From NCBI RefSeq assembly GCF_017052655.1, contig NZ_JAFIDC010000001.1:930001-994000 (forward strand): DNA of 64,000 bases. The letters run 5' to 3'. How positions within the stretch are numbered: the first letter of the stretch is position 1; each line of letters begins with the position of its first letter. This DNA comes from Acholeplasma equirhinis (GTDB lineage: Bacteria > Bacillota_I > Bacilli_A > Acholeplasmatales > Acholeplasmataceae). The notes under the pieces are model-generated. The model did not search any database. It saw nothing but the letters and a program-made list of their open reading frames with translations, and was not told the origin of the DNA. Positions 25,853 through 63,714 of this stretch are shown here, piece by piece. Position numbers and translations under genes: made by a program.

Positions 25853-25863
25853 ATGATCTCTCC

Positions 25864-26769: not shown

Positions 26770-26770
26770 A

Positions 26771-44238: not shown

Positions 44239-45024
44239 TTAATTATTTTCTGCTAGATCAAATCCTTTAAAGCGAGTATCAAATGGATTTTTGATATAAC
44301 GGACAAGTAAAAGTGTTGCAACTGCAAACATACCCACACTTTGCCATTGTGAAGGTGAGAACAATGGTAAGAATGTACCGCGTTCATCTCCTCTAAAATA
44401 TTCAATAAAGAATCTAAAGATTGGATAGGCAATAAAGTATAGGAAGACCATATAATTAATCTTCATTTTTCTTATTAAATAAATGCCTACTAAAACGAGT
44501 AATCCAACAAAAATTGCTTCAAATAATTGTGTCGGTACAACTGCATGATCATGTGTATGGAAAGTCATACCATACCATTCATCCGTATCGATACCGAAAC
44601 AGCATCCTGCCATCACACAACCAATACGACCAAATGTTTGTCCAATCATTACTGAAAAGATTGCAACATTGGTTACGTGGAAGAATTTTGCTTTTGCTTT
44701 TTCTGGTGCAAAGAATTTTGAACCAATGAGCCATACAGTTATACCACCTACTACACCACCCATTAAAGTCATACCTTGAGCTTGATATTCTCTACCTTTT
44801 TCAAGTGCATCAATTAGGTTATAAAGTTGTTGGAATAAAAATGCAAATATAAAGCCTACCACCATTGATACAAGTATCAATTTTAGATAAAACTCATAAA
44901 CATCAACTTCTACTTTGTAATACTTCATTACCATACGGAATGCAGCAAGTGAGAAAAAGACGCCAATAATAATCAAAACATAGTAGGTTTCAAAACCTTC
45001 TATACCAAACATATAAGGATACAT
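44239..45024 (-). CDS. Divergent Lgt-like (prolipoprotein diacylglyceryl transferase family) membrane protein
   Basis: 261 aa with about seven TM helices and the Lgt layout: an N-terminal Tyr-rich entry, GMTLMGGVVGG, then GQTFGRIGCVMAGCCFG and RFFIEYFRGDERG near the C-terminus. True Lgt transfers a diacylglyceryl group to the lipobox Cys. Here the conserved His of the HGG motif is Met, and GRxGNF..GE is GRIGC..GCC; the Arg is kept. This is therefore a paralogue whose activity is uncertain. Start ATG 45024 is chosen because AAGAAGGTGA precedes it; upstream ATGs (45045, 45042) lack a site. It sits between a surface protein and a lipoprotein SBP gene, which suggests a link with surface display. 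Confidence 0.7.
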   Translation of the reverse strand: MYPYMFGIEGFETYYVLIIIGVFFSLAAFRMVMKYYKVEVDVYEFYLKLILVSMVVGFIFAFLFQQLYNLIDALEKGREYQAQGMTLMGGVVGGITVWLIGSKFFAPEKAKAKFFHVTNVAIFSVMIGQTFGRIGCVMAGCCFGIDTDEWYGMTFHTHDHAVVPTQLFEAIFVGLLVLVGIYLIRKMKINYMVFLYFIAYPIFRFFIEYFRGDERGTFLPLFSPSQWQSVGMFAVATLLLVRYIKNPFDTRFKGFDLAENN

Positions 45025-45058: not shown

Positions 45059-45083
45059 GGGGACTCCTAAATTAGTAGTCCCC
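45059..45083 (-). terminator. GC-rich hairpin after the surface-protein gene
   Basis: GGGGACT pairs with AGTCCCC, with further partial pairing inside. It follows the 850-aa gene on the minus strand; the T-run is poor, so termination may be partial and allow read-through into the Lgt-like gene. Confidence 0.55.
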
Positions 45084-45121
45084 CTCTTTGTTATATCACT
45101 AGTTGCTTATATAGTTAGATC

Positions 45122-47674
45122 TTAGTATTTTCTCTTGAATAAGAAGAATGCTAGACCACTTAATGTTAATAAACCTAATAATGAAAGTGAAATATTTGAA
45201 ACGTTGAATAATGCAGCACAACCAGCATCAACAGGTAATGCACCAACATTGTCTTCTAATTCACCGATTTGTTCTTCTAATGAATCAATTAAGTCTTGTA
45301 ATTGAGCAACTTTAGCAGCAAGTTCAGCTTGTAAAGCAGCTAATTCAGCTTGTAAGTCTTCTAAATCTTCGCCCATTTCATCGTTTGCAGCTAAAGCAGC
45401 ATCTAAAGCATTTTGTAATGCAGTGATTTGTGCGTTTAACGCAGCAAGTTGATCACCAGAAGCTGGAGCAGCAACGACTGTAACTGAGAATGAAGCTGTA
45501 GTTGAGTTACCAGCACGGTCCTCTACTGCAACCATTACATTATATGTACCAGGTACATTTAAGTTTAAACCACCATTTGATTCAACAAACATAGCAAGTT
45601 GTGATGGTGTATCGTAGTTATCGTAAGCAACAACGTTTGCTAAGATTGCTTGAGAAGCATTAGCAAATTGTGATGCATTTACACGATAGTTTGAGTTAAC
45701 AACCATAGCAACTGGAGCTGTTCTATCATCTACTGTTAGTGTGTATGAATTATTAATTACGATATAGTGATCTTGGTCAGGAATACCTTGAACATGCGGT
45801 GTAACAACTGTTGTATCAAATGCAGTAGCTCTTGCAGCAGTTAATGAAGATGTACCGTTTACTGAAACGTTACCAGCAATAACAATGTATGAACCATTGT
45901 CAGCAGCAGCTTCTACCCAAGCTTTAACTTTAGCATCCGAATCCATTACATTTGTAGGGCCTTGCGCACGAGTTGGGAATTCTGAATTCCATAATTGCCA
46001 GTTAGTTCTGTCAACAGCTTGAATTAATTTACCTTCAGCACTTACTTCCATGATAACCATTGTTGCATAACCAGTTTCATTATAAACGAAGTCAGCACCC
46101 CAGAAAATAGTTACTTTATCAGTAAAGTTACCAACTTTTTCATTGATGTAAACGTTTGACCATTGAATACCGTTTAAGAAAACAACTGGATCTACATCCG
46201 GAGTACCTTCAATATGGATGTGTTGAGTTAATTGTAAATCAATCTTATAAACACCAGGTTGTGGGTAGAATGGATTGAATGACGCAGGATAAGTGATTAC
46301 AATGTCATCAGTCATGTCATTACCTTCACCATCAACAGCTGTAATTGAACCTAAAAGATCGATTGGTTGATCTTCATCATGGAATCTATTAGAAATGCCA
46401 ATAAAACGTGGAGGAATTACACCAACAACAACGTCTACTAAAACAACAGATTCTTTTCCTTCTGGGCTTGTTGTGTAATATTTAGCAACATAAGCAGCAC
46501 CGAATTCTGTAGTATCGATTGCTGTAACAGCAGCTGATGGAGTGTATTTATCTAATTCAGAATCATAAACAAATTCGATAGTTTCTAAGACTTCTTCACC
46601 TTGCATAATATCAACAGCATAAGATAATTTTTCAGTCTCATTAATGATTGCACCGCCTTCATCAAACATTCTTACCCATGAAACATTCACAGCGTTTGAT
46701 AAATTAAATGAACCATTATGATCGATGACGATTTGTACGCCTGGAGTGTTTGGATCATCATCTTGTGCAGTAATTCCAGCAAATGCAGGAGCTAAAGCTT
46801 TATATAAGAATGAAGCTCTAAGTTCAGTATCTTTATCTGCGATAACTAATGGCATTGAAGCGATTAATTCAGTAGCTTTTGATCTAACACCATCAGCATC
46901 ACGGTCTTTTGTACCGAATGACATAACTGTCCAACCTGCAGGAATTGCAACGTTTCTTGGGTCAGTTAAGATGAATAATGATCTTTCATTTTCTGGAAGA
47001 TCAACTAAGTCTGGGTTAGTCCAACCTAAGTAACCGATTGGTTCTAATACATAACCTTTATCTTCTGCTGGATCAACCATCATACGGATATGTGAATAAC
47101 GAGTATTTGGAGTTAATGTAGCAGCATCAGCACCAGCAGCGATAAACGCAGCTTTTTCTGATTCAGTAGCTAATCTCCAATCAGCGTTTTCAGTAGCATC
47201 TGTACCATCATTATGGATGTAATATTGGAAGATATGGTCTTCGAACATCATTAATTTACCATCTTGATTGTAGTATGTGTAAATACGTTGAACAACTGTC
47301 GTTAAGTCTGTACGGTTGTTTGTAGTTGAAAGTTCGATATCATCTTCAGTATCGTTGATAATTACAGAAGCAAAAGCGTTCCATGATAATGCAGGTCCGA
47401 TTTCACTTGCTGAGAAATAACCATCTGCATTAGCATCATTAAATGAGCTTGCCCATTTAACACCACTTCTTACGATGTGGTAACGATAGTTATTGAATTC
47501 GAAGTCCCAGTTAGAATCTCCAACTAAAGTATAAATTGTTGAAGGTCCATATAAGGCACCTGGGTCACCATACGGATAGATTTCAATCATTCCGTCAGTT
47601 TCGTCTGCGTAAGATGGTGCAAGCACAACTAACACAGCGAAGCAAAATAATAGCATAGCTATAATTTTTTTCAT
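45122..47674 (-). CDS. Secreted surface protein with coiled coil and GC-TM-FKRKY C-terminal anchor
   Basis: 850 aa. An N-terminal Sec signal peptide (ends near PSYADE) leads into a large beta-rich ectodomain without a recognised enzyme motif. Ig-like segments follow (about 395-440, and 640-725 with VPGTYNVMVAVEDRAGNST). An Ala/Leu/Glu heptad coiled coil (about 738-810, repeats of LQAELAALQ) comes next, then DAGC (Cys819), a hydrophobic helix and the tail FLFKRKY. The C-terminal block closely resembles that of the 1481-aa GHL10 protein. It has the best promoter in the window and an overlapping cre site, so it is likely abundant and sugar-repressed. It is possibly an adhesin or S-layer-like protein. 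Confidence 0.7.
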   Translation of the reverse strand: MKKIIAMLLFCFAVLVVLAPSYADETDGMIEIYPYGDPGALYGPSTIYTLVGDSNWDFEFNNYRYHIVRSGVKWASSFNDANADGYFSASEIGPALSWNAFASVIINDTEDDIELSTTNNRTDLTTVVQRIYTYYNQDGKLMMFEDHIFQYYIHNDGTDATENADWRLATESEKAAFIAAGADAATLTPNTRYSHIRMMVDPAEDKGYVLEPIGYLGWTNPDLVDLPENERSLFILTDPRNVAIPAGWTVMSFGTKDRDADGVRSKATELIASMPLVIADKDTELRASFLYKALAPAFAGITAQDDDPNTPGVQIVIDHNGSFNLSNAVNVSWVRMFDEGGAIINETEKLSYAVDIMQGEEVLETIEFVYDSELDKYTPSAAVTAIDTTEFGAAYVAKYYTTSPEGKESVVLVDVVVGVIPPRFIGISNRFHDEDQPIDLLGSITAVDGEGNDMTDDIVITYPASFNPFYPQPGVYKIDLQLTQHIHIEGTPDVDPVVFLNGIQWSNVYINEKVGNFTDKVTIFWGADFVYNETGYATMVIMEVSAEGKLIQAVDRTNWQLWNSEFPTRAQGPTNVMDSDAKVKAWVEAAADNGSYIVIAGNVSVNGTSSLTAARATAFDTTVVTPHVQGIPDQDHYIVINNSYTLTVDDRTAPVAMVVNSNYRVNASQFANASQAILANVVAYDNYDTPSQLAMFVESNGGLNLNVPGTYNVMVAVEDRAGNSTTASFSVTVVAAPASGDQLAALNAQITALQNALDAALAANDEMGEDLEDLQAELAALQAELAAKVAQLQDLIDSLEEQIGELEDNVGALPVDAGCAALFNVSNISLSLLGLLTLSGLAFFLFKRKY

Positions 47675-47824: not shown

Positions 47825-50800
47825 TTAGCGAATTGTACCAGGAATATGTACAAAGAATGTACGTGACATAGATTGTCCCATATATTCGATGTTAATTGTG
47901 TATGAAATAGTTGTTGCATGATTAGGTTTTGCAATAATGCGGCCATGATCATCTAAAATTTCAGGATTATGCGATGTCATTCCAATTGTCGCATCAGCAA
48001 ATTCTTTCCATACTTGATATTCAACATCAGCAAATTCTTGGAAATATGAAACAAGTCCTGAATTAATTAAAGTATTTGGACAAATCTTACCCGAGAAATC
48101 TCTATGGAATCTTAAATGTCCACGTGGAAGATTATAATAAACCATTCTTTGCGTAGCAAACTTAGCTGTTCTTTGCCATACACGGTAAATATCATCATCT
48201 TGAGCAACTGACATTTCAATCGCAATACCATTTCTGTTACCACCACCTAAATAGGTAGCTGATTGTCCTGGTAATGTTGAACCGTCACCTGCATGATATG
48301 AAACTTCGTCTTCTGGTACGTGTTGATATAAATATTCATCATCCATTGTATATGTCCATGATGTATTTAAAACAGTACCCACCATTGCAGCATTATATAG
48401 ATAATTAGCATGCGATAAAGCACCAGAACCTGGAGCATTATTTGCTGTATCATGGATTGTTAACCAATATACATTTTGAGGATTATATGTTGTGATACCT
48501 GCAGGATGTGCAGGTTTTTTAATGCCTGGACGGATACCATTAGAAACTGGCACCATCTTAGAAGTATTCACCTCTATATTGTTATCAAAATAATATTTTG
48601 AAACTGACTCATAATCCACATTCTTAAATGTCATACCTGTACCAATAACATCATAACGATATTCTTGTGTGTATCCGACTTGATAGATTGTTAATAAATC
48701 AAGTAAATTGTTCGAATCTAAACTTTCAAAGAATTGTACAGTGTAATCATTATATACCGATGGATCAGACTGTAATCTGACACGAATGATAACATCACCT
48801 GCTTGTAGACCAGTGACTTCACCATTTTCTGTAACAGTTGCAATATTTGTATTTAATGATTCATAAGTTACTGCTTCATTCGATAATGTATATGGGAATG
48901 GTACAGCTTCTAATGTCACTTTATCCCCTATAACTAAGTTTTGTTCTTTTTGAGAAGGGATAATATCAATACCTGGGTCAGTTGTAACTGAAATTGTGAT
49001 GACAGTATTAATCGTTGCAGCATTCGCACTTCTTACTGTAATTGTTGCAAGACCAGAACGTTTTGGTGTGAGAATTCCATTATCATTTGGCATAAGTACT
49101 TCTGCATCTGTTGTAATTAATCTAAATCTTGCACCGGTTAATTCATATGGTAAATAATCCCATTCTAGTTTAAATGTTGATCCAATAAAGATTTCTTCAA
49201 TTGGATTTGTAATAAAGATAAACTGTGGCACTGCTGGGTTATATGATGCTTCTGAAGGAATATTATTCTTTTGTTTGTAATGTCCTAATAACATTCTTTC
49301 TGGAATACCTTCAAAATCATTTAAATCAAGTTCAGCTGAACCCCAATGGTTTAATGTGAAATCGACATAATCTCTATTAGCAATTGCGGCTTCTTCACTA
49401 AATGATGCAAGTGAATTAAAACGAACAATTGCTGAAATTTGTTGTTCACCTAACAAAATCGAAAATCCAGACTTAACATTTTGAATTTCATTTCTTTGAA
49501 TGCTTAATTTTGAATTTGATTGATATTGTTCGCCTAATACTGAAATTGCAATACCAGCTTGATTAAATTTATTTTTAAGAATTGTAATATCACCAGTTTT
49601 AAAGTCTAGTACTTTGATACCATCTTTTGATAGGTTAACAAAATCATTTTGATTAATGGTTAAACCATTAGCTTCTTCAATTACAATCGCATCTTCTGCT
49701 AAACCTTCAAATTTGTTTGAAACAATTGAAAGGTTTGTTGCAGATGGTTTTGCTAAAATACCACCATTTTCTACAAATTCAAAACCTGAAATTGTTAGAT
49801 TTGGTGCATCAATTGTGATTAAACCACCTAACTTAATAACACCTAATTTAGTTAAATTGAAACTAGAAGTAATTGTAAATGAATCATTATATGTGCCTGC
49901 AGCAACGATCACTTCAGTTTCTTCAGTTAGTACAGAATCTAGATCTGCAAATTTGTTAAATAATCTCTCACCAAAGACAAAATCTAATCCTTCGTGTTCG
50001 ATTGAGCCTGATTGAACGGATGCATCTAAATAAACGATATCAAAGATGTCAATTTCAAGTTCTGCAACAAGTTCAGGGTTTAATTCATAGGTTGCTGTTA
50101 CTTTAACTTTACCAGTTTTTAAGAAAGTAATTAGACCTTCCTCTGTAATGGTAGCTAAACTGTCATCATCAACAGAGAATGAAACACCTGATATAGCAGT
50201 CACTGGTGCAAATGAAACTAACAGTTGACGATTTGTTCCGATGTTAGCCTTTGTATTACCAACAAGAACAATCTCTTCTGCTAAGCTTAAGACTGTCACT
50301 TCGATTGAGTCAGTTACTTCAGGGTCTAAAAGAGATTTAATTGTTAATGTCACAGTACCTGCACCAACAAATTCTACAAAACCATTTTCATCAATGATCG
50401 CAATACTTTCATCTGATGATTCAAAAGTAACTTCATCATTTGCTTCATATACTAATTCGATTGATTGCCCAACCCAAATCACACCTTCGATATCAGATAG
50501 TGAGATTGCTACCTCCTTTGTGACATTCAGTGTAATTTCTAAAAATATGGCTTCATTAGATACAGATTCAACACGAATTTTTGTTTGTCCGTGTTTTAAA
50601 CCTGTAACCACTAGATCATCTAAACTAGCAATTTCTTCATCCAATACTGAAGCAGTGTAGCCTTCTTCATCATTGGTTGTTACAACTAATTCAAAAGTTT
50701 CACCTTCTTTTAAGTTGATTAAAGTCGTATTCGCAGAAAGTGTAATTTCTACCGGTTCTTCAACAACTTCGTCACATGCGACGATTAAAAGGGCACTTAA

Positions 50801-50833
50801 GAATAGCATGAACGAAAATAATATTTTTTTCAT
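47825..50833 (-). CDS. Lipoprotein N-acetylmuramoyl-L-alanine amidase (Amidase_2) with BIG2 and beta-helix domains
   Basis: 1002 aa. Lipobox LLIVAC; Big2-like Ig domains (about 30-255); a right-handed beta-helix (about 285-490, with ANGLTINQNDFVNLSKDGI); two further Ig-like domains (about 540-715); Amidase_2 (about 785-935); and a C-terminal Ig-like domain ending FFVHIPGTIR. The amidase keeps the T7-lysozyme-type zinc ligands: His in LTIHDTAN (about 793), His in FHRDFSG (about 911) and Cys in GKICP eight residues later, plus SYHAGDGS. It cuts the amide between MurNAc and L-Ala outside the cell. It is a paralogue of the next gene (50963-53533) with the same domain order. Confidence 0.87.
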   Translation of the reverse strand: MKKILFSFMLFLSALLIVACDEVVEEPVEITLSANTTLINLKEGETFELVVTTNDEEGYTASVLDEEIASLDDLVVTGLKHGQTKIRVESVSNEAIFLEITLNVTKEVAISLSDIEGVIWVGQSIELVYEANDEVTFESSDESIAIIDENGFVEFVGAGTVTLTIKSLLDPEVTDSIEVTVLSLAEEIVLVGNTKANIGTNRQLLVSFAPVTAISGVSFSVDDDSLATITEEGLITFLKTGKVKVTATYELNPELVAELEIDIFDIVYLDASVQSGSIEHEGLDFVFGERLFNKFADLDSVLTEETEVIVAAGTYNDSFTITSSFNLTKLGVIKLGGLITIDAPNLTISGFEFVENGGILAKPSATNLSIVSNKFEGLAEDAIVIEEANGLTINQNDFVNLSKDGIKVLDFKTGDITILKNKFNQAGIAISVLGEQYQSNSKLSIQRNEIQNVKSGFSILLGEQQISAIVRFNSLASFSEEAAIANRDYVDFTLNHWGSAELDLNDFEGIPERMLLGHYKQKNNIPSEASYNPAVPQFIFITNPIEEIFIGSTFKLEWDYLPYELTGARFRLITTDAEVLMPNDNGILTPKRSGLATITVRSANAATINTVITISVTTDPGIDIIPSQKEQNLVIGDKVTLEAVPFPYTLSNEAVTYESLNTNIATVTENGEVTGLQAGDVIIRVRLQSDPSVYNDYTVQFFESLDSNNLLDLLTIYQVGYTQEYRYDVIGTGMTFKNVDYESVSKYYFDNNIEVNTSKMVPVSNGIRPGIKKPAHPAGITTYNPQNVYWLTIHDTANNAPGSGALSHANYLYNAAMVGTVLNTSWTYTMDDEYLYQHVPEDEVSYHAGDGSTLPGQSATYLGGGNRNGIAIEMSVAQDDDIYRVWQRTAKFATQRMVYYNLPRGHLRFHRDFSGKICPNTLINSGLVSYFQEFADVEYQVWKEFADATIGMTSHNPEILDDHGRIIAKPNHATTISYTINIEYMGQSMSRTFFVHIPGTIR

Positions 50834-50864
50834 CCTTTCCCTCCTATTTATTTTTAAACGATAT

Positions 50865-50880
50865 ACCTATATATATAGGT
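50865..50880. promoter_or_regulatory. Perfect 16-bp palindrome upstream of the second amidase gene
   Basis: ACCTATATATATAGGT is self-complementary over its full length and lies 31 bp upstream of the 1002-aa amidase start, within its leader or promoter. Candidate operator. Confidence 0.4.
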
Positions 50881-50910
50881 TATATCGGCTTTAGACCGAA
50901 ATATAAGCGA

Positions 50911-50950
50911 CTTGAAAAGAGGTTATTGTTTTTTTACCTTATTTTTCAAG
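50911..50950. other. Two-part inverted repeat between the tandem amidase genes
   Basis: CTTGAAAA pairs with TTTTCAAG, and inside it AGGT pairs with ACCT. It lies 12 nt after the first amidase stop (50963). The T-run is poor, so this is either a weak terminator or a processing structure separating the two amidase genes. Confidence 0.45.
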
Positions 50951-50962
50951 CATATGAAACAA

Positions 50963-53533
50963 TTAACGGATTGAACCAGGAATATGTGTAAAGAAAGTTC
51001 TTGCTTGTGTTACACCATTAAATGTAACTGTCACAGTATATGATACTGTTTGTGCAACATCAGGAATACCAATAATTCTTCCGTGATTATCGAGTAAATC
51101 TAAATTGTGAGATTCAAATAAAATTTCTGCATCTTGGAAGTTTTTAGCAACTTTATATTCAACATCGACCATTTGTTCAAAGTAAGGCATTAAACCAGAT
51201 GCGATTAATGTTTGTGGACAGTTCTTACCAGAGAAATCTCTATGGAATTTCACTTGAGTTCTTGGTAAATTCCAACGCACAAGTGCATCACCTGCAAATT
51301 TAGCTGTTCTTTGCCATGTTCTATAAATATCTGTACCAATTGTTACAGAGGTTTCAATACCAATGCCGTTTTTATTACCACCACCAAGGAATGCACCTTG
51401 ACCAGGTAATGTTGAACCATCACCTGCATGCCATGCAACTTCTTCTTCAGGAATGTGTCGAATAGTATCTTTATCATCAATCGTATAGTTCCATGATGTA
51501 AAATCTTCTGGACCACTAATTGCTTTATTTACTAAATATTGTGCATAATAAGCTGCAGAACCTGCATGTGTATTCACAGCAGTATCATGGACAACGATCC
51601 AATAGATATTTGCAGCATTATATGTTGGTAAATCTGCTGGTACAGCAGGACGTGATTGACCACCACGTGTACCACCTGAATGTTCTTGATCGAGTGGTAC
51701 TAAAATTTCTTGAATTTCTAAGTTTTCAAAATAGAACTTAGAAACTGATTCATGATCCTCTCTTATATAAGGATCTCCAATACCTGTAACAGTATATGTA
51801 TAGAGTTTAGAGTAATGAACTTGATACATTGTCAGCAAGTCTAATAAATTATTTTCATCTAAATTTTCATAGAATGAAATGGTATATTCATTGAAGACGA
51901 ATGGATCAGATTTTAAACTTACACGAATTGTTACATCCCCAGCATTAATTGATGTCACTAAACCTGTTTCATCAACAGTTGCAATATTTGGTTGAAGTGA
52001 AACAATATCAAGTGCTTCATTTTCAAGTGTATATGGGAATGGTAAAATGTTTAATTTGATTGAATCACCTTTAATAAGTGTTTGTTCCTTTGTCTCAGGT
52101 GTAATATCAATACCTGGGTCAGTAATTACTGAAATATCAATATCTGTTCTAACTTTATTATTAGATGTCGAACGAATAGTGATTGTAACAAGTCCACTTC
52201 TAATTGCTTCAAGTTTACCTGTTTGATCTGCTTTAAGTGAGAGTTGCTTAGATGTTAGAATTTGCACATTTGCTTGTGGCAATTCATAAGGTAAATGTAC
52301 CCATTCTAATTGATATGTATCTCTAACATAAAGTTCTTCAACTGGATTTGTAATGAAGAATGCCAGTGGTTGATTTGGATTATAAGAAACCTCAGAGACG
52401 ATATCTGCTTTTTGTTTATAGTGTCCAATTAACATCATTTCTGGAATATTAACAAAGTCATTTAAATTGAGTTCTTCCATACCCCAGTAATTTAATGTAA
52501 AGTCAACACCACTATTTAAATTACTTTTTGCAGCTAACTCATGATAATTTTCTAATGAATTGAAGCGAACAATCGCTGGAATTTTTTCACCTTGTAATAA
52601 AATGATAAATCCTGTCATTGCATCACTAATTTCATTTCTTTCTACGTTAACGGTAGCTGTTTCATCATAACTTGAAGTTTCAATTGAAACTGCTGTTTTT
52701 ACTGATTCAAATTTGTTTTTATTAACTCTTAAATATCCACTGTGGATTGATAAAACTGTAATCGCATCATTATCTATTGCTTCAAAAGTATTTCCAATAA
52801 TTTGTAGTGAATTAGATGATTCAGCTGTGATTGCAACCTCTTTTAAATTTCTAAAAGTATTATTTTCAATACTTACATTTTTAGCATTTGAAGTGATATG
52901 AATTGAACCTTTTTCTTCAAATATCAGGTCTTTAATTGTAATCATTTCAGCATCTAAAGTGAGCTTGCCTTTTAATGTCACTTCACCTTGGCGTTTGATT
53001 GCTACATTGTTTTTACCAATCTTTAAATCACCTTCATAAACACCTGTTAAGAGTGTCATTTGTGTACCATCATTTAGGATATCTTCTGCTTCAACTAAAT
53101 CACTAAATAATTTTTCACCAAATACGAATTTAAGGCCATTTAAAATTTGAGTATCACCTTCGTTAGCATTTGCATCTATTAAGATTTCATCTACGATCTC
53201 AATGATAAAAGTAGACGAATTACCATCTTCTACATTTTCAGTGATGACAACTGTCCCTTTTTGTAGAAACTTTATGACGCCATCTGCGTCAACAGTTGCT
53301 AAATTAGCATTTGATGTATAGTAAGTTTTAAGTCCAATCTCTTCGGTTACAATCTTTCTTTGTGTGCCGACATTTGCTTTACCTAAATCTTCAAATTCAG
53401 GAATTTCTGGTTCTTCTTCGATTGGTTCTTCAATAATAGGATCCTCATCACCAGGTTCCTTGTTTGGGTCTTCACATGAAACAAGTGTAAAGAAACCTAA
53501 AATTAACATGAGGATTAGAAAAAATTTCTTCAT
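50963..53533 (-). CDS. Lipoprotein N-acetylmuramoyl-L-alanine amidase (Amidase_2), tandem paralogue
   Basis: 856 aa. Lipobox TLVSC, an acidic Glu/Pro/Ile linker (about 23-50), one Ig-like domain, a beta-helix (about 140-340), two Ig-like domains (about 385-565) and Amidase_2 (about 640-790). The amidase has IVVHDTA (His about 648), AWHAGDGSTLPGQ, GNKNGIGIETS and FHRDFSGKNCP (His about 766, Cys eight later). It ends RTFFTHIPGSIR, nearly identical to its neighbour's end. It is shorter by about one N-terminal Ig domain. Its ATG overlaps the AmiE-like gene stop by 4 nt, so it is co-translated with the anmK-GHL10 operon, whereas the second amidase has a 129-nt leader of its own. Confidence 0.87.
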   Translation of the reverse strand: MKKFFLILMLILGFFTLVSCEDPNKEPGDEDPIIEEPIEEEPEIPEFEDLGKANVGTQRKIVTEEIGLKTYYTSNANLATVDADGVIKFLQKGTVVITENVEDGNSSTFIIEIVDEILIDANANEGDTQILNGLKFVFGEKLFSDLVEAEDILNDGTQMTLLTGVYEGDLKIGKNNVAIKRQGEVTLKGKLTLDAEMITIKDLIFEEKGSIHITSNAKNVSIENNTFRNLKEVAITAESSNSLQIIGNTFEAIDNDAITVLSIHSGYLRVNKNKFESVKTAVSIETSSYDETATVNVERNEISDAMTGFIILLQGEKIPAIVRFNSLENYHELAAKSNLNSGVDFTLNYWGMEELNLNDFVNIPEMMLIGHYKQKADIVSEVSYNPNQPLAFFITNPVEELYVRDTYQLEWVHLPYELPQANVQILTSKQLSLKADQTGKLEAIRSGLVTITIRSTSNNKVRTDIDISVITDPGIDITPETKEQTLIKGDSIKLNILPFPYTLENEALDIVSLQPNIATVDETGLVTSINAGDVTIRVSLKSDPFVFNEYTISFYENLDENNLLDLLTMYQVHYSKLYTYTVTGIGDPYIREDHESVSKFYFENLEIQEILVPLDQEHSGGTRGGQSRPAVPADLPTYNAANIYWIVVHDTAVNTHAGSAAYYAQYLVNKAISGPEDFTSWNYTIDDKDTIRHIPEEEVAWHAGDGSTLPGQGAFLGGGNKNGIGIETSVTIGTDIYRTWQRTAKFAGDALVRWNLPRTQVKFHRDFSGKNCPQTLIASGLMPYFEQMVDVEYKVAKNFQDAEILFESHNLDLLDNHGRIIGIPDVAQTVSYTVTVTFNGVTQARTFFTHIPGSIR

Positions 53534-54573
53534 AAAATACCTCCCTTTTGATAAATGATATCGCCAATTTTAGATCTTAACGGAATGATACCATTTAGTT
53601 CTCTTTTCGGATGAACAGCATTAGATAATAAAACAAAACCTATCTTGTTTTTTCTATCGATAAACATATGACATCCAGTAAAACCGGTATGACCGATAGT
53701 TTCATTTAAATCATGAAAATGACCAGCAAAACTACCCTTATCTGGTTTTAACCATCCATAGGTTCTTGTTACCGAAAGACCAGATATTTCTTTTGAAATA
53801 ATTGGTTTAAACAAGTATTCAGTCATTTCTTTACTGAGTATAAATTTGTCATTTAATATAGACTGTATAAATATCGCTAAATCGCTTGCTGTAGAGAACA
53901 AACCTGCATGACCAGATAATCCTTCCATAGCAAAACTTTTCTCATCGTGTACCTTACCTTTTAAAAGTCCTTGATAAACATCATCTTCCCTTAATTCAGT
54001 TGGTACAACACGGGATAAATCAGGCAGGTAAGATGAATCTTTCATACCTAAAGGTTTAAAAATCCATGCTTCTGCAAGTTTATTGATTTTCTCTTTCGTG
54101 ATTGTTTCGATGATTTCGCCTAATAAGATAAATCCACAGTCTGAGTAGACATAATCTTTACCTGTTTCATAGATTAAACCCATTTCATAAATCTTTTCAA
54201 AGACTTCATCTTTGTTCTTTAGTGCTTTAGCATTTTTAATATCTGCAGGTAGTCCTGAACAATGTCCAAGTAAGTCTTTAATTGTAATATGTTCATGCTT
54301 AAATCGTGGTAGCACAGAACTTACTGTTGTTTCAAAAGAAAGTAAGCCTTTTTCAACAAGTTTTAATGTTAAAGTCGTGGTTGAAACAACTTTGGATAAA
54401 GATGCCACGTCATAGATTTCATTACCCAAAGTTGCTTCCACGGTTGGGACTATTTGTTTTTGCCCAACATAATCAAAGTCGATTGAATTAGGTGTTACGA
54501 TTGCATATTGGCATCCAGGAAATTTACCTTCTTGAATACCTTCCAAAAGTAGCGCACGTATAGACTCTTTCAA
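53530..54573 (-). CDS. Beta-lactamase-fold serine hydrolase, AmiE-like
   Basis: 347 aa, no signal peptide. SxxK is S58-L-S-K61 (DVASLSKVV), the second motif is Y143-S-D, and the third is HTGFTG near residue 295: the complete triad of the class C beta-lactamase/esterase fold. B. subtilis AmiE, the muropeptide amidase partnered with NagZ, belongs to this fold, so cytoplasmic removal of L-Ala-peptide from MurNAc-peptides is the best guess from context; an esterase or D-aminopeptidase is the alternative. YSD in place of YxN is a variation seen in esterase-like members. It lies between the secreted GHL10 enzyme (11-nt gap) and the amidase (4-nt overlap). Confidence 0.75.
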   Translation of the reverse strand: MKESIRALLLEGIQEGKFPGCQYAIVTPNSIDFDYVGQKQIVPTVEATLGNEIYDVASLSKVVSTTTLTLKLVEKGLLSFETTVSSVLPRFKHEHITIKDLLGHCSGLPADIKNAKALKNKDEVFEKIYEMGLIYETGKDYVYSDCGFILLGEIIETITKEKINKLAEAWIFKPLGMKDSSYLPDLSRVVPTELREDDVYQGLLKGKVHDEKSFAMEGLSGHAGLFSTASDLAIFIQSILNDKFILSKEMTEYLFKPIISKEISGLSVTRTYGWLKPDKGSFAGHFHDLNETIGHTGFTGCHMFIDRKNKIGFVLLSNAVHPKRELNGIIPLRSKIGDIIYQKGGIL

Positions 54574-54584
54574 ATATTTAACTC

Positions 54585-57500
54585 CTAGTATTTTTTAAAT
54601 ACGATAAATCCTAAACCTAACATAGTGATTGCACCAAGTAAAGCTAACATAAATGTTGGTGCATCCCATAAGAACCAACATCCTGTTGCAGGTTGTGGTT
54701 CTGGTGTAACTGTTTTAGCTTGCCATTTAGCATATAAGGTCATATCTTCAAAAATAGCTGTACCAAAACTAAATTCTTGTGTTAAAGCTTCGTCTTTAAA
54801 CCATCCAACAAAGTCATAACCTTCTTTAGTTGGTGCTGTAGGTCTTGTTGCATGTGTATCTTTTGGAACCGTTTGTGATTCTACTTCTGAACCTCCATTT
54901 GTATTAAATGAAACGGTTACTTCTACAACTGGTTCTTGTTCTTGTTCATACTTCGCATAAAGTGTGATATTTGAAGTGATTGGTGTATCAAAGTCAAAGC
55001 GTTGTGTTAGTGCTTGATCAATATACCAACCTTCAAAGTTAAAGCCAGGTTTTGTTGGCTCAATTGGTTCTTCTGCGAACATACCTTCTTGAACGATTTG
55101 ATATGCAACATTTGAACCACCATTTGTATCAAATGTAACTGTGTAATTTACAATTGGCTGTGGTTCAGATACTGTTGTATCCCACGGGAATGTTGCACGT
55201 TTTGTCCAGAATATATTTTGTAGTCTTGTAATCGCTTGTGTCACAAATGCATGTGGACTATTTAAAGTCTTATAACTGAAGAATGATGAACCAATTATTT
55301 CATCATATTGTGACATGTAGCGAATTTGTTCTAATAATTCATTTTGATCTGTCCAGTTATTTGATGTTTCAGCATAACGGTAGAAACCTTGACCAATAAT
55401 TAACTTAACATCTGTACCAGAAACTGTTTCAACCCACCAGTCAACTAAATCAGCAAAGCGTGCAGTTGAATGGTTAAATTGCCAGTAAAGCTGAGGGATG
55501 ATATAGTGTAACCAACCTTCTTTAACCCACTTACGGCTATCTGCATATTGTGCAGAGTAACTTTGTAAGCCTTGTGAGTTAGAACCTATTGGATCAGATG
55601 TTTTGTTTTGCCAAATACCAAATGGTGAAATACCAAATTTAACAGCTTTTTGATTGCTTGAATTATGTGTTTCTACCATTTCAAAGATTGTCTTAACAAG
55701 TTCGTTAATGTTTTCTCTACGCCAATTATCGCGTGATAAACTATTTGGATTATTTGCTAGGAATGCAACTTCATCTTCAGCATTAGGTGTACCGTTATAA
55801 CTATAGAAATAGTCATCGAAGTGAACACCATCAACATCGTAGTTAGCCATTAATTCAGCAATAATGTTATATAAGTATTGTCTAACTTCAGGAATACCAG
55901 GATTTAAGATTAAATGTCCTGATGTGTCTTGGATAACATAACTTGGATTTTGTTTTGCAAAGTTGTCATTTGATAATTGTGCAAGTTGATCTGCTTTTGT
56001 TCCGGTACCTGATGAAACGCGATAAGGATTCATCCAAGCATGGACTTCAATACCACGTTTATGTGCTTCAGTAATTAAATATTCAAAGACATCCCAACCT
56101 GGATCAACACCTTCAGTACCAGTTAAGTATCTTGAGAAAGGTGCATATTCTGAAGGATAGAAACTATCATTCATAGAACGTGTTTGGAAGAAAATAGTAT
56201 TAAAGTTTAACGCAGTTAGTCTATTTAAGATTGAAATGATTTTCGCTTTATAATCTGCTTGACTTGTATGTAAACCAATATCAATATTTGATACTGTTGC
56301 TACCCATACTGCACGAATTTCTTCATCTTTTTCAGTATAAGTTGTAGGTAATTCTACTGGTGTTTGTGTATTGTAATAATAAACAAATTGACCATCACGA
56401 ATGACGTATTGATTGTCTTCGTTATATGGCATATTCATACGAATTCTGACTTCTTCAACTTCACTTTCAATACCACCAGCATTGACTGCTTTATATTGAA
56501 CTGTGAATGTACCATTATAGTTGAATGTTAGAGGTTCAGAATATGTTGTCCAAGAACCCCATGAAACACCATTGTGCATGCGATATTTAATTGTGTTTCC
56601 GGCTTGTGCTACAAATGAAAGTATGGTTGGTGAGACATAGTAAATACCTTCCATATCACCTTCAATGTTATAGTTTGGAATTGCAGGTAAACCTACAATT
56701 GTAAATTCTTTCGAATGTATCGTATCACCATTTGCATTACGATATTCAAATTTATATGTACCTGATTGAGCAAAATCAACTGGTGTTGTGTAATTTTGCC
56801 ATGCACCACCATTAATTCTAAATTGTGGTTGTGGTGATTGTGCATTGATTGTGATTTCTAACCATGTATAGTTTGGATCTTCACCTTCACCAGCAAGTTC
56901 TAATGTTGGTTGTGCATAACCTACTTGATAAGTTTTTTGAACTTCAGCAGAGTCCACTCCACCTGAATCTTTAGTTTTTGCATAAATGACATAATTACCT
57001 GAAACAAGTGTTGCATCATCTAAAGTAAATGGACCTGTATATAATGTCCAATCAATTGATTGGTTACCATGATTATATTTGTACCAAATTTGGCCACTAG
57101 CTGCTGTAATTGTGACAGCTGACCCAACTTGATAACGACCGTTTGGTAAGACATTACCATTAATTGTAATATTTGGTAAGACGTTATTCACACGATCTAC
57201 TGAGAAACTTTCAGATGCAATGTTAGAATTTTCTTCTGCACCTTGGGCATAGTATGAGAATGTATGATTGCCATTTGAATTTACAACAACTGGTGTTGTA
57301 TATAATTGATATTCACCACTGTTTAATTTGTAATAAATTGGTAAATCAGATGAAAGTGTAATTGTAACTTCACTTGTATAGAATAAACCTACCTTTGTAC
57401 CAGCAATGTTAATTGTTGGTTGAGGTACGCTTGATTGATATGTTGGTCCTAAATGGTTTGTTTGAGACATTGCTCTCACACCATATGTATATGTACCAGC

Positions 57501-59030
57501 TGCATCACCTGTTGGTACAGTGATTTGTGCATCTGATGAATTACCAACAACTTTAAAGATTTGTTCATCTGAGTAATTTAATGCACCAGTTGAACGATAA
57601 ACGTAATAGAATTTAGCATTTTCTTGAGTGTCAAATTTTAAATTACCTGAAGTATGTGAAATATTTGTTACTGCATTTGGAATAATTGGGTCAAAACTTT
57701 GTAAAACTGGTAAATGAGTTTTCGTTTGCCATGAAGATTCATGTGCAGCTCTCACTTGTTTTGCAGAATTTGAAGTAAGTCCATTTTTACCATTTAATAA
57801 ATCATTATAACGATAGACTGAGAATCCTTGTGCATTTTCTAATGTTCTTAAGAAATTCATTTGTTTTGTGAATTCAGCTGGATCATTATACCAAGAATAG
57901 TTACCTGTACCATCAGCCATGTAAACACCAATACCTGAGTATAGATTTACATTTAAATATTTAGTAACTTTATCCCACCAACCCATCACGTTTTGGTATC
58001 CTGCAGCAGGATGTGTATGTCCCCAATAAGTTTGAGGTAAGATGTAATCTAACCAACCTTCAGAGATCCATTTAAGTGAATCAGCAAATAAATAAGATGA
58101 ATAGTGTGTTTGACCTGTTGAAACTGAACCCGTTGTTATTGGTTTTCCTTGTGCATCATAAGTAACAACACCATTACCATTTTTATAAATACCGGTTGGT
58201 GAAATACCAAATTGAACACGACGTCCAGTTACTTCGTTAAAATCTGATAATAAATCATGAATACCTTCAATTAAAATATTTACTTGTTCTCTTCTCCAGT
58301 CAGCTTTTGAAGCTGCACTTGATGTATTATAACCAGCACCATATGTAACAAATGTTGCTTGGTCTGGTTCACTTAAAATTGTTGTTGCACCAGTAGTTGC
58401 ACCGTTTGCACCCATATTTGTATAGAAATAATCATCAAAGTGGATTGCATCAACTGGATAACGTTCAATAATTTCTTCGATTGTGTCATAGATGTGTTGA
58501 CGTACGTTTGGTAACCCTGGATTTAAGATTGCACCATTTAGTACATTTGATGCATTTGATTCCGGGTTAGCAGCTGGCATTGAACCAACTCTATATTGAG
58601 AACTTACACGATATGGGTTTAACCATGCGTGGAACTCAATACCACGACGATGTGATTCCTCAACAAACCATAACATTGGGTCAAATACATCCCAATCAGC
58701 TACACCTGCCATAAATGATGCTCTTGGGTTGATTGCAGATTTGTATAATGCATTGTTATGTGTTCTAAAGTGAACAATGACTGCATTGAAATTGAAATAT
58801 TCTAATGTATCAAGTACTTTAGTTACTTCAGTTTTCCATTGTGCTTCATTTTGATAATTAGGCATACTTGAGATGAAGTTTGAAAGCCATGCAGCTCTAA
58901 ACTCACCTTTTTCTTCCACGATTACATTTTGTGCATCTAAAATTTCTGTCATCTCTGCATAGGTTTCATCTTGCGGTAAAACAGCTATCAAAGAGACAAT
59001 TGTTAATAGTAAAATTATTAATTTCTTCAT
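54585..59030 (-). CDS. Secreted double-domain GHL10 (DUF187) glycosidase with InlB_B repeats and C-terminal anchor
   Basis: 1481 aa. Sec signal peptide (ends near ETYAEM). First GHL10 barrel about 40-430 (FRAAWLSNF, HAWLNPYRVSSQY, VDAIHFDDYFYT, YILPQTYWG). Fibronectin/CHB_HEX_C-like beta domains about 440-870. Second GHL10 barrel about 897-1277 (IRAVWVATV, HAWMNPYRVSS, VDGVHFDDYFYS, YIIPQLYW). InlB_B repeats about 1295-1362 and 1368-1437, then ATGCWFLW (Cys1451), a TM helix and the tail FIVFKKY. GHL10 proteins are TIM-barrel glycosidase-like; both barrels keep the HFDD acid pair. Given the neighbours, the substrate is probably murein glycan. The two barrels differ, so they may cut different bonds. 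Confidence 0.82.
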   Translation of the reverse strand: MKKLIILLLTIVSLIAVLPQDETYAEMTEILDAQNVIVEEKGEFRAAWLSNFISSMPNYQNEAQWKTEVTKVLDTLEYFNFNAVIVHFRTHNNALYKSAINPRASFMAGVADWDVFDPMLWFVEESHRRGIEFHAWLNPYRVSSQYRVGSMPAANPESNASNVLNGAILNPGLPNVRQHIYDTIEEIIERYPVDAIHFDDYFYTNMGANGATTGATTILSEPDQATFVTYGAGYNTSSAASKADWRREQVNILIEGIHDLLSDFNEVTGRRVQFGISPTGIYKNGNGVVTYDAQGKPITTGSVSTGQTHYSSYLFADSLKWISEGWLDYILPQTYWGHTHPAAGYQNVMGWWDKVTKYLNVNLYSGIGVYMADGTGNYSWYNDPAEFTKQMNFLRTLENAQGFSVYRYNDLLNGKNGLTSNSAKQVRAAHESSWQTKTHLPVLQSFDPIIPNAVTNISHTSGNLKFDTQENAKFYYVYRSTGALNYSDEQIFKVVGNSSDAQITVPTGDAAGTYTYGVRAMSQTNHLGPTYQSSVPQPTINIAGTKVGLFYTSEVTITLSSDLPIYYKLNSGEYQLYTTPVVVNSNGNHTFSYYAQGAEENSNIASESFSVDRVNNVLPNITINGNVLPNGRYQVGSAVTITAASGQIWYKYNHGNQSIDWTLYTGPFTLDDATLVSGNYVIYAKTKDSGGVDSAEVQKTYQVGYAQPTLELAGEGEDPNYTWLEITINAQSPQPQFRINGGAWQNYTTPVDFAQSGTYKFEYRNANGDTIHSKEFTIVGLPAIPNYNIEGDMEGIYYVSPTILSFVAQAGNTIKYRMHNGVSWGSWTTYSEPLTFNYNGTFTVQYKAVNAGGIESEVEEVRIRMNMPYNEDNQYVIRDGQFVYYYNTQTPVELPTTYTEKDEEIRAVWVATVSNIDIGLHTSQADYKAKIISILNRLTALNFNTIFFQTRSMNDSFYPSEYAPFSRYLTGTEGVDPGWDVFEYLITEAHKRGIEVHAWMNPYRVSSGTGTKADQLAQLSNDNFAKQNPSYVIQDTSGHLILNPGIPEVRQYLYNIIAELMANYDVDGVHFDDYFYSYNGTPNAEDEVAFLANNPNSLSRDNWRRENINELVKTIFEMVETHNSSNQKAVKFGISPFGIWQNKTSDPIGSNSQGLQSYSAQYADSRKWVKEGWLHYIIPQLYWQFNHSTARFADLVDWWVETVSGTDVKLIIGQGFYRYAETSNNWTDQNELLEQIRYMSQYDEIIGSSFFSYKTLNSPHAFVTQAITRLQNIFWTKRATFPWDTTVSEPQPIVNYTVTFDTNGGSNVAYQIVQEGMFAEEPIEPTKPGFNFEGWYIDQALTQRFDFDTPITSNITLYAKYEQEQEPVVEVTVSFNTNGGSEVESQTVPKDTHATRPTAPTKEGYDFVGWFKDEALTQEFSFGTAIFEDMTLYAKWQAKTVTPEPQPATGCWFLWDAPTFMLALLGAITMLGLGFIVFKKY

Positions 59031-59036
59031 TAACTT

Positions 59037-60248
59037 TTAGCCCTTCCTCTCGTTTAATAATTTTTGAACAAGTTCCATGCCTGCTTTAGAACCTGCTTGA
59101 TCAATAAATGTTTTATATGTGAAGAAAACATTTCCCTTCACGGTCTCAAATTGATTTGCAAATTTTAATTGATTAACAACTTCAAGTGGATTTTCATAAC
59201 CACCTTCACTACCTAATCGATAAGCACCATGACCAATGTATAAATCACAGTTTGTACCTTTAACAATATCTGCCCACCAAACTGCTAAATCAGCAAATGG
59301 TGCAAGGACATGACCAAAGTCCCAATATAGTTGTGGAATAATGTAATCAATGTATCCTTCTTTAATCCATAAAACTGAATCTGCATATTGATTTGAATAA
59401 GATTCACTACATTTTGGGTCAGTATTTGAACCAGCAGGATCAGATGCTTGATTTTTCCAAATTCCAAATGGTGAAACACCAAATCGTTTACCACTGAATT
59501 TTGATTTGATTTCTTCATTTAAACGTTTAATGACTTCTGTGATTTGGTCACGTCTAAATTGATCAAGACTAACCTTTTTGCCACTTGCTTCATAATCCGC
59601 AAGATCGTTATCACTTTCTGATAAACCTGCATAAGGATAGAAATAGTCATCAAAGTGAATACCTGCAATATCTTTATAGTTTTCAAGTATTTCTAACATA
59701 GATTCAATAATGAAATCTTTAACTTCTTTTTTCGCTGGATTTAAAATTAAACCACCGTTTTTATCAACAATCACAAATTCAGGATGTTGTTTTGCAAAGT
59801 TTAAATCATCACAAGTTTCTAAGTATTGCGCTTTTGTTAAATCTTTTTGCATAGAAACTCGATATGGGTTACACCATGCATGAATTTCAATATTTCTTTT
59901 TTTAGCTTCATCTAAAACAAAATCTAAGATATCAAATGGTGGTTCTTGTCCTTCTTTTTCAACAAGATATCTTGAATATGGATTTAATTTTGATTTATAA
60001 AATGCATCGCTAGTTGTTCTAACTTGGAAAAAGATTGTATTAATATTGAAATTTACCGCTGTATCAAACATTTCAAGTACTTTTGCCTTATATTCAGGGT
60101 TCGTTGCAGGTGGTAGGTCAATATTGACAACATTTGAAACCCAGAAAGCTCTCACTTCTTTTTGATTAAAGGTTTCTGGAATTTCTACCTGGCGGTCTGT
60201 TTGGAAGTAGTTTAATGGTAAGCCAGTCTTAAAGTTAAATAATTTCAT
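59037..60248 (-). CDS. Cytoplasmic single-domain GHL10 (DUF187) glycosidase
   Basis: 403 aa, no signal peptide. Same barrel as both domains of the next gene: VRAFWVSNVVNIDL, TIFFQVRTTSDAFY, EIHAWCNPYRVS, IAGIHFDDYFYPY (the two Asp likely catalytic), FGVSPFGIW and DYIIPQLYWDFGH. It resembles the second secreted barrel more than the first by these motifs. It overlaps GH4 by 14 nt and is followed 6 nt later by the secreted version. A secreted/cytoplasmic pair of one enzyme family suggests the same bond is cut first in the polymer and again in imported fragments. Confidence 0.82.
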   Translation of the reverse strand: MKLFNFKTGLPLNYFQTDRQVEIPETFNQKEVRAFWVSNVVNIDLPPATNPEYKAKVLEMFDTAVNFNINTIFFQVRTTSDAFYKSKLNPYSRYLVEKEGQEPPFDILDFVLDEAKKRNIEIHAWCNPYRVSMQKDLTKAQYLETCDDLNFAKQHPEFVIVDKNGGLILNPAKKEVKDFIIESMLEILENYKDIAGIHFDDYFYPYAGLSESDNDLADYEASGKKVSLDQFRRDQITEVIKRLNEEIKSKFSGKRFGVSPFGIWKNQASDPAGSNTDPKCSESYSNQYADSVLWIKEGYIDYIIPQLYWDFGHVLAPFADLAVWWADIVKGTNCDLYIGHGAYRLGSEGGYENPLEVVNQLKFANQFETVKGNVFFTYKTFIDQAGSKAGMELVQKLLNERKG

Positions 60249-61527
60249 TGATTTCTGCTCCGTAGTATTTCAAGTATTGTTCGTTTAATTTAAGTAAATG
60301 TTTAAATGCAAGTTCTGCTTTTATTGAAGACTTTGTCATCGGATGCAGTTTAATTGCCATTAATGCTTTGTTAAGGTTCTTTTCATATATTGCATCACAT
60401 AAAAGTTCTTCATATGCTTTTTGATGTTGCACTAAACCTTTCACTGCTTGAGGTAATTCACCAATATGTACCGGAAGTGGTCCACGGTTAGTTAAGCGTG
60501 ATGTAATTTCAATCGCACATTCTTCTCTGATATCTGTGATATGTCCACGGTTAACCGTATTCACAACGTGATACGTTTTCTTATTTAAGACAATTGATGC
60601 CATGATATTCATGACTTCTTCAGCATAATTTGCACCATCTCTTAAATCAAGTTCTTTTGGTCTTTCATTGAGCGATTCATCTTTATAAATGTTAAATAGT
60701 TTCTCTTCAATCAATTTAACTTCTTTACTTCTTGCTTCTAATACTTTACGTTGATTTAAGATTTCTTCGTATTGAATCAAATAAATCAAACTTGGATTTG
60801 GATATGATTCAATAATTTTTAAATCAACTTCTCGCATCGGAATGCGTTCATAAAGTTTTTTACTCTTTAAAAGTTCTGCCATTTTGTTTCTATGGTTATG
60901 ATAAACCTTTACTGCAAATGACAATTCATTCAATCCACCGATATATGGGATTAAATCTTGTTTTGCAACACCAAGTGAATCAGCAAGTTCTTGGTGCATC
61001 TTTACAGGGTCTGTACAAATCCCTATAAATCGATCATATTCTGAGAAACGGAAGACAGCTTCACTGATAATCCCAATTGGATTTGAAATACATAATGTCC
61101 ATGCATTTGGTGCAATTTCTTTTATATCTTCGATGATTTCATAAACAACCGGTACCGTACGTAATGCTGAGAACATACCACCAATACCTAATGTTTCATG
61201 ACCAATCATGTCGTAATTAAATGGAATCGTTTCATCATAAAATCTTAAATCCTGTTTACCAACTCGGATTTGTAAAACGACAAAATCAGCATCTTTCAAT
61301 GCTTCTTTTCTGTTTGTTGTGGACTCAACTTCAATTTCCAAATTATGTTTCTTAAACATTCTTTTTGCGAGTCCATTAATCATCATGAGTCTTTCTATGT
61401 TGGATTCTAAATCAACTAATGTAACATTTCTAATTTCAAGTGCTTCTGACTTTTTAATGATTTGGTTGATCAGTTCAGGTGTATATGTAGATGCACCACC
61501 GATTACAACAATTTTTAGTTGTTTCAT
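60235..61527 (-). CDS. GH4-family NAD/metal-dependent 6-phospho-glycosidase
   Basis: 430 aa, LicH/CelF-type. Rossmann motif VVIGGASTYTPELI (6-19), VLQIRVGKQDLRFYDE, TLGIGGMFSALRTVP, CISNPIGII, GICTDPVKM with the metal-binding Cys, and RDGANYAEEVMNIM with the catalytic Tyr. GH4 enzymes split 6-phosphoglycosides by an NAD-assisted elimination. Unusual: the GLNH block that normally supplies the metal-binding His reads GGLNELSF, so His is Glu. Substrate may be a phosphorylated murein disaccharide or a cellobiose-type 6-phosphate; context favours the former but does not prove it. The start follows ACGAGGGTTTAC, 14 nt after anmK. Confidence 0.82.
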   Translation of the reverse strand: MKQLKIVVIGGASTYTPELINQIIKKSEALEIRNVTLVDLESNIERLMMINGLAKRMFKKHNLEIEVESTTNRKEALKDADFVVLQIRVGKQDLRFYDETIPFNYDMIGHETLGIGGMFSALRTVPVVYEIIEDIKEIAPNAWTLCISNPIGIISEAVFRFSEYDRFIGICTDPVKMHQELADSLGVAKQDLIPYIGGLNELSFAVKVYHNHRNKMAELLKSKKLYERIPMREVDLKIIESYPNPSLIYLIQYEEILNQRKVLEARSKEVKLIEEKLFNIYKDESLNERPKELDLRDGANYAEEVMNIMASIVLNKKTYHVVNTVNRGHITDIREECAIEITSRLTNRGPLPVHIGELPQAVKGLVQHQKAYEELLCDAIYEKNLNKALMAIKLHPMTKSSIKAELAFKHLLKLNEQYLKYYGAEINEII

Positions 61528-61541
61528 GTAAACCCTCGTTT

Positions 61542-62687: not shown

Positions 62688-62719
62688 AATTAACCTTCCC
62701 TTTGTCTATGACAACATCT

Positions 62720-62725
62720 ATTATA
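62720..62725 (-). promoter_or_regulatory. -10 box of the anmK operon
   Basis: A perfect TATAAT on the minus strand, 33 nt before the start codon. The -35 region (CATTTA) is poor and overlaps a cre site. Confidence 0.6.
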
Positions 62726-62745
62726 TAAGATTTTTTCTTATATAA
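62721..62745. promoter_or_regulatory. Inverted repeat in the anmK promoter, candidate MurR operator
   Basis: TTATATAAGA-TTTTT-TCTTATATAA has perfect 10-bp arms spanning from the -10 to the -35. It lies in front of the murein-sugar operon and directly downstream of the murR gene, so it is the best candidate MurR site. Confidence 0.6.
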
Positions 62746-62746
62746 A

Positions 62747-62760
62747 TGTAAGCGTTATTA
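62747..62760. promoter_or_regulatory. Candidate cre (CcpA) site upstream of anmK
   Basis: TGTAAGCGTTATTA matches 13 of 14 cre positions and sits at the -35 edge of the anmK promoter. Confidence 0.6.
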
Positions 62761-62785
62761 TTTAGAATATTTATTTCAAATAAAG

Positions 62786-62815
62786 AAAAAACACTTTCAT
62801 GAAAAAAGTGTTTTT
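62786..62815. terminator. Intrinsic terminator after murR
   Basis: AAAAAACACTTT pairs with AAAGTGTTTTT around a short loop, with T/A tails on both strands. It separates murR from the anmK operon. Confidence 0.75.
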
Positions 62816-62828
62816 ATGTTGTTTTTGA

Positions 62829-63674: not shown

Positions 63675-63714
63675 CGTATAACACACCTCTTATTTGCATC
63701 ATTTTGCTAAAGTA

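Follow-up and report, generated by a model that had tools for sequence, protein, structure and literature searches.

Sorting tags centred on a C-terminal cysteine are known from the MYXO-CTERM/MrtX system and from JDVT-CTERM/MrtJ and Synerg-CTERM/MrtS. In the MYXO-CTERM system, a CPBP-family glutamic intramembrane protease is the processing enzyme, and lipidation of the cysteine before cleavage has been proposed, with the lipidating enzyme reported as unidentified and something similar to Lgt as the favoured candidate (PMC11980579). In E. coli Lgt, the phosphatidylglycerol site is bordered by R143 and R239, to which catalysis of the transfer has been ascribed as a proposal (PMC4728403). N146 is essential (PMC13251419), and replacement of E151 was reported as inactivating in one study (E151A/Q; PMC4728403) and as tolerated in another (E151A; PMC13251419), while H103 is replaced by Y, W or F in some other Lgt enzymes (PMC13251419). 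Lgt homologs with N146C and E151C/D have been recorded earlier without an assigned role (PMC13251419).

Compared with these systems, the locus described here has several shared and several distinct features. First, like MYXO-CTERM, JDVT-CTERM and Synerg-CTERM, it combines an invariant Cys, a helix and a basic tail on Sec-exported surface proteins. In most relatives, though not in the window's own genome, a dedicated CPBP-family gene lies beside Lgt2, and its product would do the processing. In contrast to MYXO-CTERM, the hosts are probably monoderm and wall-less, without an outer membrane or type II secretion; the tag is linked to an Lgt paralog of its own; its motif is GCxS or GC followed by hydrophobic residues; and some genomes carry Lgt2 without a dedicated CPBP. 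Second, the maturation proposed here would be that of Lgt-LspA lipoproteins turned round. An Lgt-family enzyme, an invariant Cys by a membrane helix and a putative helix-removing intramembrane protease recur, but here the Cys stands close to the C-terminal end and is followed by the helix, in inverted topology, with no lipobox; Lgt2 carries GCxxAGCC instead of GNxxNGE, and the protease would be CPBP and not LspA. Third, Lgt2 resembles the N146C/E151C homologs (e.g. the N146C homolog MSMEG_5408, PMC13251419) in its residue changes, namely Cys at N146 and in some at E151 in divergent copies, but those homologs have no assigned function in the literature found, whereas Lgt2 is tied to a C-terminal Cys tag. 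Finally, the layout of motif, helix and basic tail is that of LPXTG/sortase signals, but the tag is Cys-centred, and both sortase and LPXTG are missing.

A common C-terminal tail on two exported proteins

The window, that is, the whole stretch of 64,000 nucleotides that was analysed, encodes two exported proteins that end in the same kind of tail:

45122..47674, minus strand: putative substrate 1, an 850-aa exported surface protein with a signal peptide lacking a lipobox, an Ig-like domain, a coiled coil and the Cys tail; orthologs occur in relatives
45122..45232, minus strand: tag of substrate 1, with Gly-Cys (Cys codon 45218-45220), a hydrophobic helix at about 45137-45187, the basic tail KRKY and the stop
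54585..59030, minus strand: putative substrate 2, a 1481-aa GHL10-family exported protein with a signal peptide lacking a lipobox
54585..54692, minus strand: tag of substrate 2, with Gly-Cys (Cys codon 54678-54680), a helix and KKY

Translation confirms both tails as they had been described by a sequence-only reading of this DNA. The 850-aa protein ends in DAGC-AALFNVSNISLSLLGLLTLSGLAFFLFKRKY, with Cys as the 32nd residue from the end, and the GHL10 protein in ATGC-WFLWDAPTFMLALLGAITMLGLGFIVFKKY, with Cys as the 31st; the two helices align without gaps in the pattern L-[SA]-LLG-x-x-T-x-x-GL-x-F. The same reading had called the two proteins unrelated, which agrees with the lack of any common Pfam or NCBIfam domain outside the tail. 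It had also proposed a genome search with the tail. When the 35-residue tail of the first copy was compared in six frames with the whole genome (1,446,424 bases, 99.75% complete), the GHL10 tail was the sole other match up to E = 10, with E = 0.001, so the resemblance exceeds chance. Tags were also found in relatives, and a tail profile built from them recovered both tails of the window's genome at E ~1e-14 to 1e-16, these tails being themselves rows in that profile. Nothing else convincing was found in this genome by the single-tail six-frame search or by the relatives' profile. The shared Gly-Cys, helix and basic tail is confirmed as real, and the genome has two members.

The three-part tail with its invariant Cys is kept in relatives, and this conservation backs the tag as real; Gly-Cys is the only invariant column pair among 21 tails, which is partly selection as these were gathered as Gly-Cys tails. 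Using a simple hydropathy rule, N-terminal Sec signal peptides were recognised in the 28 tagged proteins with an intact N-terminus. A lipobox-like match was present in 1 of these 28, inside the hydrophobic stretch and apparently spurious, versus 67/149 untagged exported proteins from the same loci (p = 1e-5), so the tag appears on proteins without an N-terminal lipid anchor.

As the earlier reading had supposed, the tag has no name yet: NCBIfam and Pfam hold no model for it and gave weak LPXTG-anchor matches at most, due to the helix and basic tail, and none of the named CTERM models scored above cut-off for the window's tails. The best MYXO-CTERM score was 15.8 against a cut-off of 20, from a Clostridia tail, and the window's tails gave no MYXO-CTERM match. 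LPXTG_anchor passes its own cut-off for the first tail scanned alone, on the helix and basic end. The named CTERM families were rejected for the window's tails because no Cys-CTERM model scored above cut-off and, for the same reason and because the CPBP scores in relatives lie far below the Mrt cut-offs, we do not file the tag under MYXO-CTERM.

Lgt2 and its surroundings

Directly downstream of the gene for the 850-aa protein lies Lgt2, and both tagged genes are within ~14 kb of it:

44239..45024, minus strand: Lgt2, a divergent prolipoprotein diacylglyceryl transferase paralog (PF01790, E = 4e-32)
44593..44631, minus strand: Lgt2 signature GRIGCVMAGCCFG in place of the Lgt signature GRLGNFINGELWG
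45059..45084, minus strand: hairpin resembling a terminator, GGGGGACTACTAATTTAGGAGTCCCC, with a run rich in T behind it, in the gap that separates substrate 1 from Lgt2; identified by direct inspection of the letters

Lgt2 has 261 aa from the MYPY start, which is favoured by ortholog usage and preceded by AAGGTG, or 268 aa from an upstream ATG at 45045. Canonical lgt is encoded elsewhere in the genome (G000:C1:1174833-1175552), so Lgt2 is a second, divergent copy. Its sequence places it in the LGT family, both by PF01790 and by a sequence-profile comparison with the PDB (profile A2), which retrieved E. coli Lgt (5azb/5azc) at E = 3e-21. The window's protein falls below the TIGR00544 equivalog cut-off (70.9 vs 118.9 bits), and the canonical signature GRxGNFxNxE is replaced by GRIGCxxAGCC. 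Counterparts are present for G142, R143, G145, G154, Y235, R239, E243 and R246 of E. coli Lgt, so that the catalytic arginines R143 and R239 and the network of Y235, E243 and R246 are kept. N146 and E151 are both Cys, with one further Cys after. In place of H103 the window's protein has Met, and other Lgt2 sequences mostly have Tyr, Leu or Ile. Three Cys and both arginines are invariant in 87 Lgt2 sequences, the Cys invariance being partly selection since the sequences were collected through the GCxxAGCC pattern or close similarity. Because N146 is missing and E151 is replaced by Cys, the reaction of Lgt2 may differ from that of Lgt.

The canonical Lgt of this genome itself forms a fusion with a HAD/PpaX-like phosphatase, in a single 512-aa frame (L026:9150-10688; G000:C1 ~1174149-1175687); the two are separate genes in a relative (G024, L025).

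In four same-genus genomes without Lgt2, the ortholog of the 850-aa protein gene directly adjoins a sugar-binding lipoprotein gene, and Lgt2 fills that gap in the window. No RNA element was found near the gene at Rfam gathering scores. The tagged genes and Lgt2 look like part of a peptidoglycan/muropeptide scavenging cluster, judged from two Amidase_2 lipoproteins, a PBP4B-like protein and GHL10 proteins, with the remaining members assigned by eye from their sequences. This large apparent cluster covers 24651-30354 and 47825-63686 of the window, with amidases, PBP4B-like, GHL10 and likely AnmK, MurQ-, NagZ- and MurR-like genes. It occurs in a probably wall-less lineage, the host being a probable member of Acholeplasmataceae and therefore probably wall-less. 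In two relatives (G015 and G107), Lgt2 stands in the same kind of cluster, between a likely anmK gene and a regulator gene or just beyond. Elsewhere in the window (2749-15224), two very large predicted lipoproteins of 1571 and 2573 aa are adjacent, the 1571-aa one with Listeria-Bacteroides repeats.

Distribution of the tag, Lgt2 and the CPBP protease

Lgt2 is patchy. It was found in 22 of the 88 family genomes, the window's own included and one (G024) left out since its weak 28.7-bit match is the canonical enzyme, and in 0/7 same-genus genomes. Orthologs of the 850-aa protein with readable ends are available in 30 genomes. A Cys tail is present in 16/16 of those with Lgt2 and in 0/14 of those without it (Fisher p = 7e-9, the genomes being related). 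The 16 tagged orthologs mostly read TGCGSAIN..., then helix and RKR, whereas the 14 Lgt2-less ones end in an unrelated plain membrane helix, e.g. VGTSL...LFLKKK; the tail type switches inside three genera. To allow for this kinship, a tree was built from the proteins with their tails removed. It requires at least 7 changes in each trait (Cys tail and Lgt2), and all five independent pairs on well-supported (starred) branches switch both traits together, where a sign test on five pairs cannot give a p below 0.06. Across the 30 genomes, the plain helix and the Cys tag take each other's place time and again as Lgt2 comes and goes, as though exchanged as whole modules.

The GHL10 family served as a second test: considering complete ends only, the GC tail was present in 8/15 genomes with Lgt2 and in 0/9 without it. 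Using the tail profile over the 88 family genomes, 16 matched at E < 1e-6, all with Lgt2, and 66 had neither a match nor Lgt2; inspection added two tagged genomes (G008 and G073), both with Lgt2. Four Lgt2 genomes have no clear tag. One of them (G107) is 67% complete, and in the other three (G013, G022 and G061) neither tagged protein has a clear ortholog. The only exception seen is a genome (G017, 87% complete) in which Lgt2 was not detected and one tag was found, which may be contamination, transfer or a real exception. That tag (L226, G017:C6) is on a subtilase-like protein, and its contig, 3.9 kb long, also bears an apparent transposase fragment.

The sequence-only reading had also suggested a search for a co-occurring membrane protease. 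The partner adjoining the tagged gene in the window's genome is, as judged from its family, an acyltransferase paralog, and a dedicated protease appears in relatives. In most lineages the gene after Lgt2, on the same strand, encodes a CPBP protein, as in G009, G021, G022, G032, G013, G040 and about ten further genomes. These neighbours encode 239-284 aa, carry EExxxR and HxxxN motifs and belong to Pfam Rce1-like (CPBP), and they match MrtJ, MrtS and the myxosortase core (Mrt_core) weakly, far below the Mrt cut-offs. In a CPBP tree, those included fall in one supported clade, with the long-branched G013 protein outside; the clade also holds the CPBPs of G011 (encoded in trans to Lgt2) and G073 (at the start of a contig), and every clade member in the sample is from an Lgt2 genome. 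The expected protease thus co-occurs with the tag in most relatives but not in the window's own genome. Here a dedicated CPBP was rejected, since the single CPBP (~400 aa) falls into a general family that most of the genomes sampled possess. The sequence just behind the Cys varies with the dedicated protease: GCxS is present in 16/16 tagged genomes with a dedicated CPBP and in 0/3 without one (p = 0.001, a value that ignores kinship and a pattern noticed post hoc). The tagged genomes without a dedicated CPBP (G000, the window's own, with G008 and G015) have GCAA, GCWF, GCKK, GCLG and GCFG.

Proposed maturation and alternative readings

We consider it likely that the tail is a C-terminal, Cys-centred lipid-anchor tag, with Lgt2 attaching a lipid to the Cys and CPBP, where present, removing the helix. 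That tags occur almost only in genomes with Lgt2 points to a lipid anchor on the C-terminal Cys. The earlier suggestion of a Cys-containing CTERM-like tag, perhaps a lipid anchor, gains support from this tracking (16/16 vs 0/14), from Lgt2 next door and from the CPBP neighbour in most relatives. In the proposed pathway, Sec would export the protein by means of an ordinary N-terminal signal peptide of the non-lipoprotein kind, and the C-terminal helix would keep it in the membrane, which would place the Cys on the outer side of the membrane. The dedicated Lgt2 would transfer a lipid, most likely diacylglyceryl from phosphatidylglycerol, onto this Cys. In relatives with the Lgt2-CPBP pair, the CPBP/Rce1-like glutamic intramembrane protease would cut near the lipidated Cys and remove the helix, and the product would be a C-terminally lipidated surface protein. 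In the window's genome, which has no dedicated CPBP, the protein would keep its helix as well or the single general CPBP would cut. The tag, where it occurs, its link to Lgt2, the pairing of Lgt2 with CPBP and the lack of sortase can be read from the sequences, and from these we infer the lipid transfer, its chemistry, the order of steps and the cleavage. Lgt2 is a strong candidate for the acyltransferase of Cys-CTERM systems. Against a general requirement for a dedicated Lgt stands the fact that MYXO-CTERM tails are processed in E. coli, which has no Lgt2 (PMC11980579).

It seems rather unlikely that canonical Lgt modifies the Cys, or that no enzyme does, with Lgt2 as some other partner (e.g. 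a chaperone, or a thioester/disulfide enzyme using the invariant GCC cysteines) and an anchor other than an Lgt2-made diacylglyceryl thioether. The Cys at N146 and E151 of Lgt2, together with the extra Cys, would suit such a role, the N146C/E151C class was noted earlier without an assigned role (PMC13251419), and MrtX cleaves the MYXO-CTERM tail in E. coli, where only canonical Lgt is available (PMC11980579). However, the arginine network for phosphatidylglycerol binding and catalysis is retained in Lgt2, and characterised Lgt enzymes transfer lipid to Cys, which is the invariant residue of the substrates here.

An ordinary C-terminal membrane anchor, with Lgt2 acting on N-terminal lipoproteins and the common Cys and helix due to chance or to the usual make-up of such helices, is in our view quite improbable, because the Cys tail switches with Lgt2 in every independent contrast, Gly-Cys is common to unrelated proteins, Lgt2 is inserted beside the substrate gene, the tagged proteins lack N-terminal lipoboxes, and predicted N-terminal lipoproteins adjoin the locus in Lgt2-less genomes too. 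It is favoured by the Lgt2-less orthologs, which are anchored by a plain C-terminal helix so that the tail need not exceed an anchor, and by the LPXTG_anchor HMM matches, which arise from the helix and basic end.

The option of a usual sortase, rhombosortase or exosortase substrate, also raised by the sequence-only reading, has the tripartite layout and the LPXTG_anchor scores above cut-off on the helix and basic end of some tails in its favour, but it is hardly credible and its sortase form was rejected, since sortase (PF04203) is absent from 88/88 family genomes while control genomes gave the expected matches, the Cys is invariant, the tails have no LPXTG, PEP or GlyGly motif and nothing LPXTG-like before the helix, and the partner tracking the tag is Lgt2 with CPBP.

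The linkage of Lgt2 to the tag joins two questions, the lipidating enzyme of Cys-CTERM tags (PMC11980579) and the role of N146C/E151C Lgt homologs (PMC13251419), and makes both directly testable. If the lipid-anchor reading is true, it would account for the display of large proteins by sortase-less, probably wall-less bacteria and re-annotate proteins now prone to be labelled LPXTG-anchored or plain membrane proteins. More tentatively, Lgt2 might be the founder of a class of enzymes that lipidate protein C-termini, a paralog of the GCxxAGCC type with a wide distribution that would modify C-terminal cysteines and give bacteria a second lipoprotein pathway, in reverse, possibly via its own invariant cysteines (e.g. 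as an S-acyl thioester and not a diacylglyceryl thioether); we hold this wider idea to be possible, with the odds somewhat against it.

Beyond the family, the Lgt2 profile picked out at least 80 loci on the genome contigs scanned, mostly in Clostridia and Bacilli. Among the matches listed together with the relatives' loci, a same-strand CPBP gene adjoins Lgt2 in 16/86, and no CPBP neighbour was recognised at most of the distant loci among the matches listed. Distant clades were surveyed only in genomes already known to carry Lgt2; among the matches listed, a tail match at E < 0.001 was present in 13 of the 35 distant genomes searched and absent in 22. On reading, nearly all of these matches are Gly-Cys tags ending long proteins. 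A tagged protein, Lgt2 and CPBP are three consecutive genes at one Clostridia locus (L076), and the genome concerned (G112) has 6 tail-profile matches. At least four proteins of this genome end in a near-identical KKSGCGS(F/M)IGG, mostly after Pro/Glu/Thr-rich repeats.
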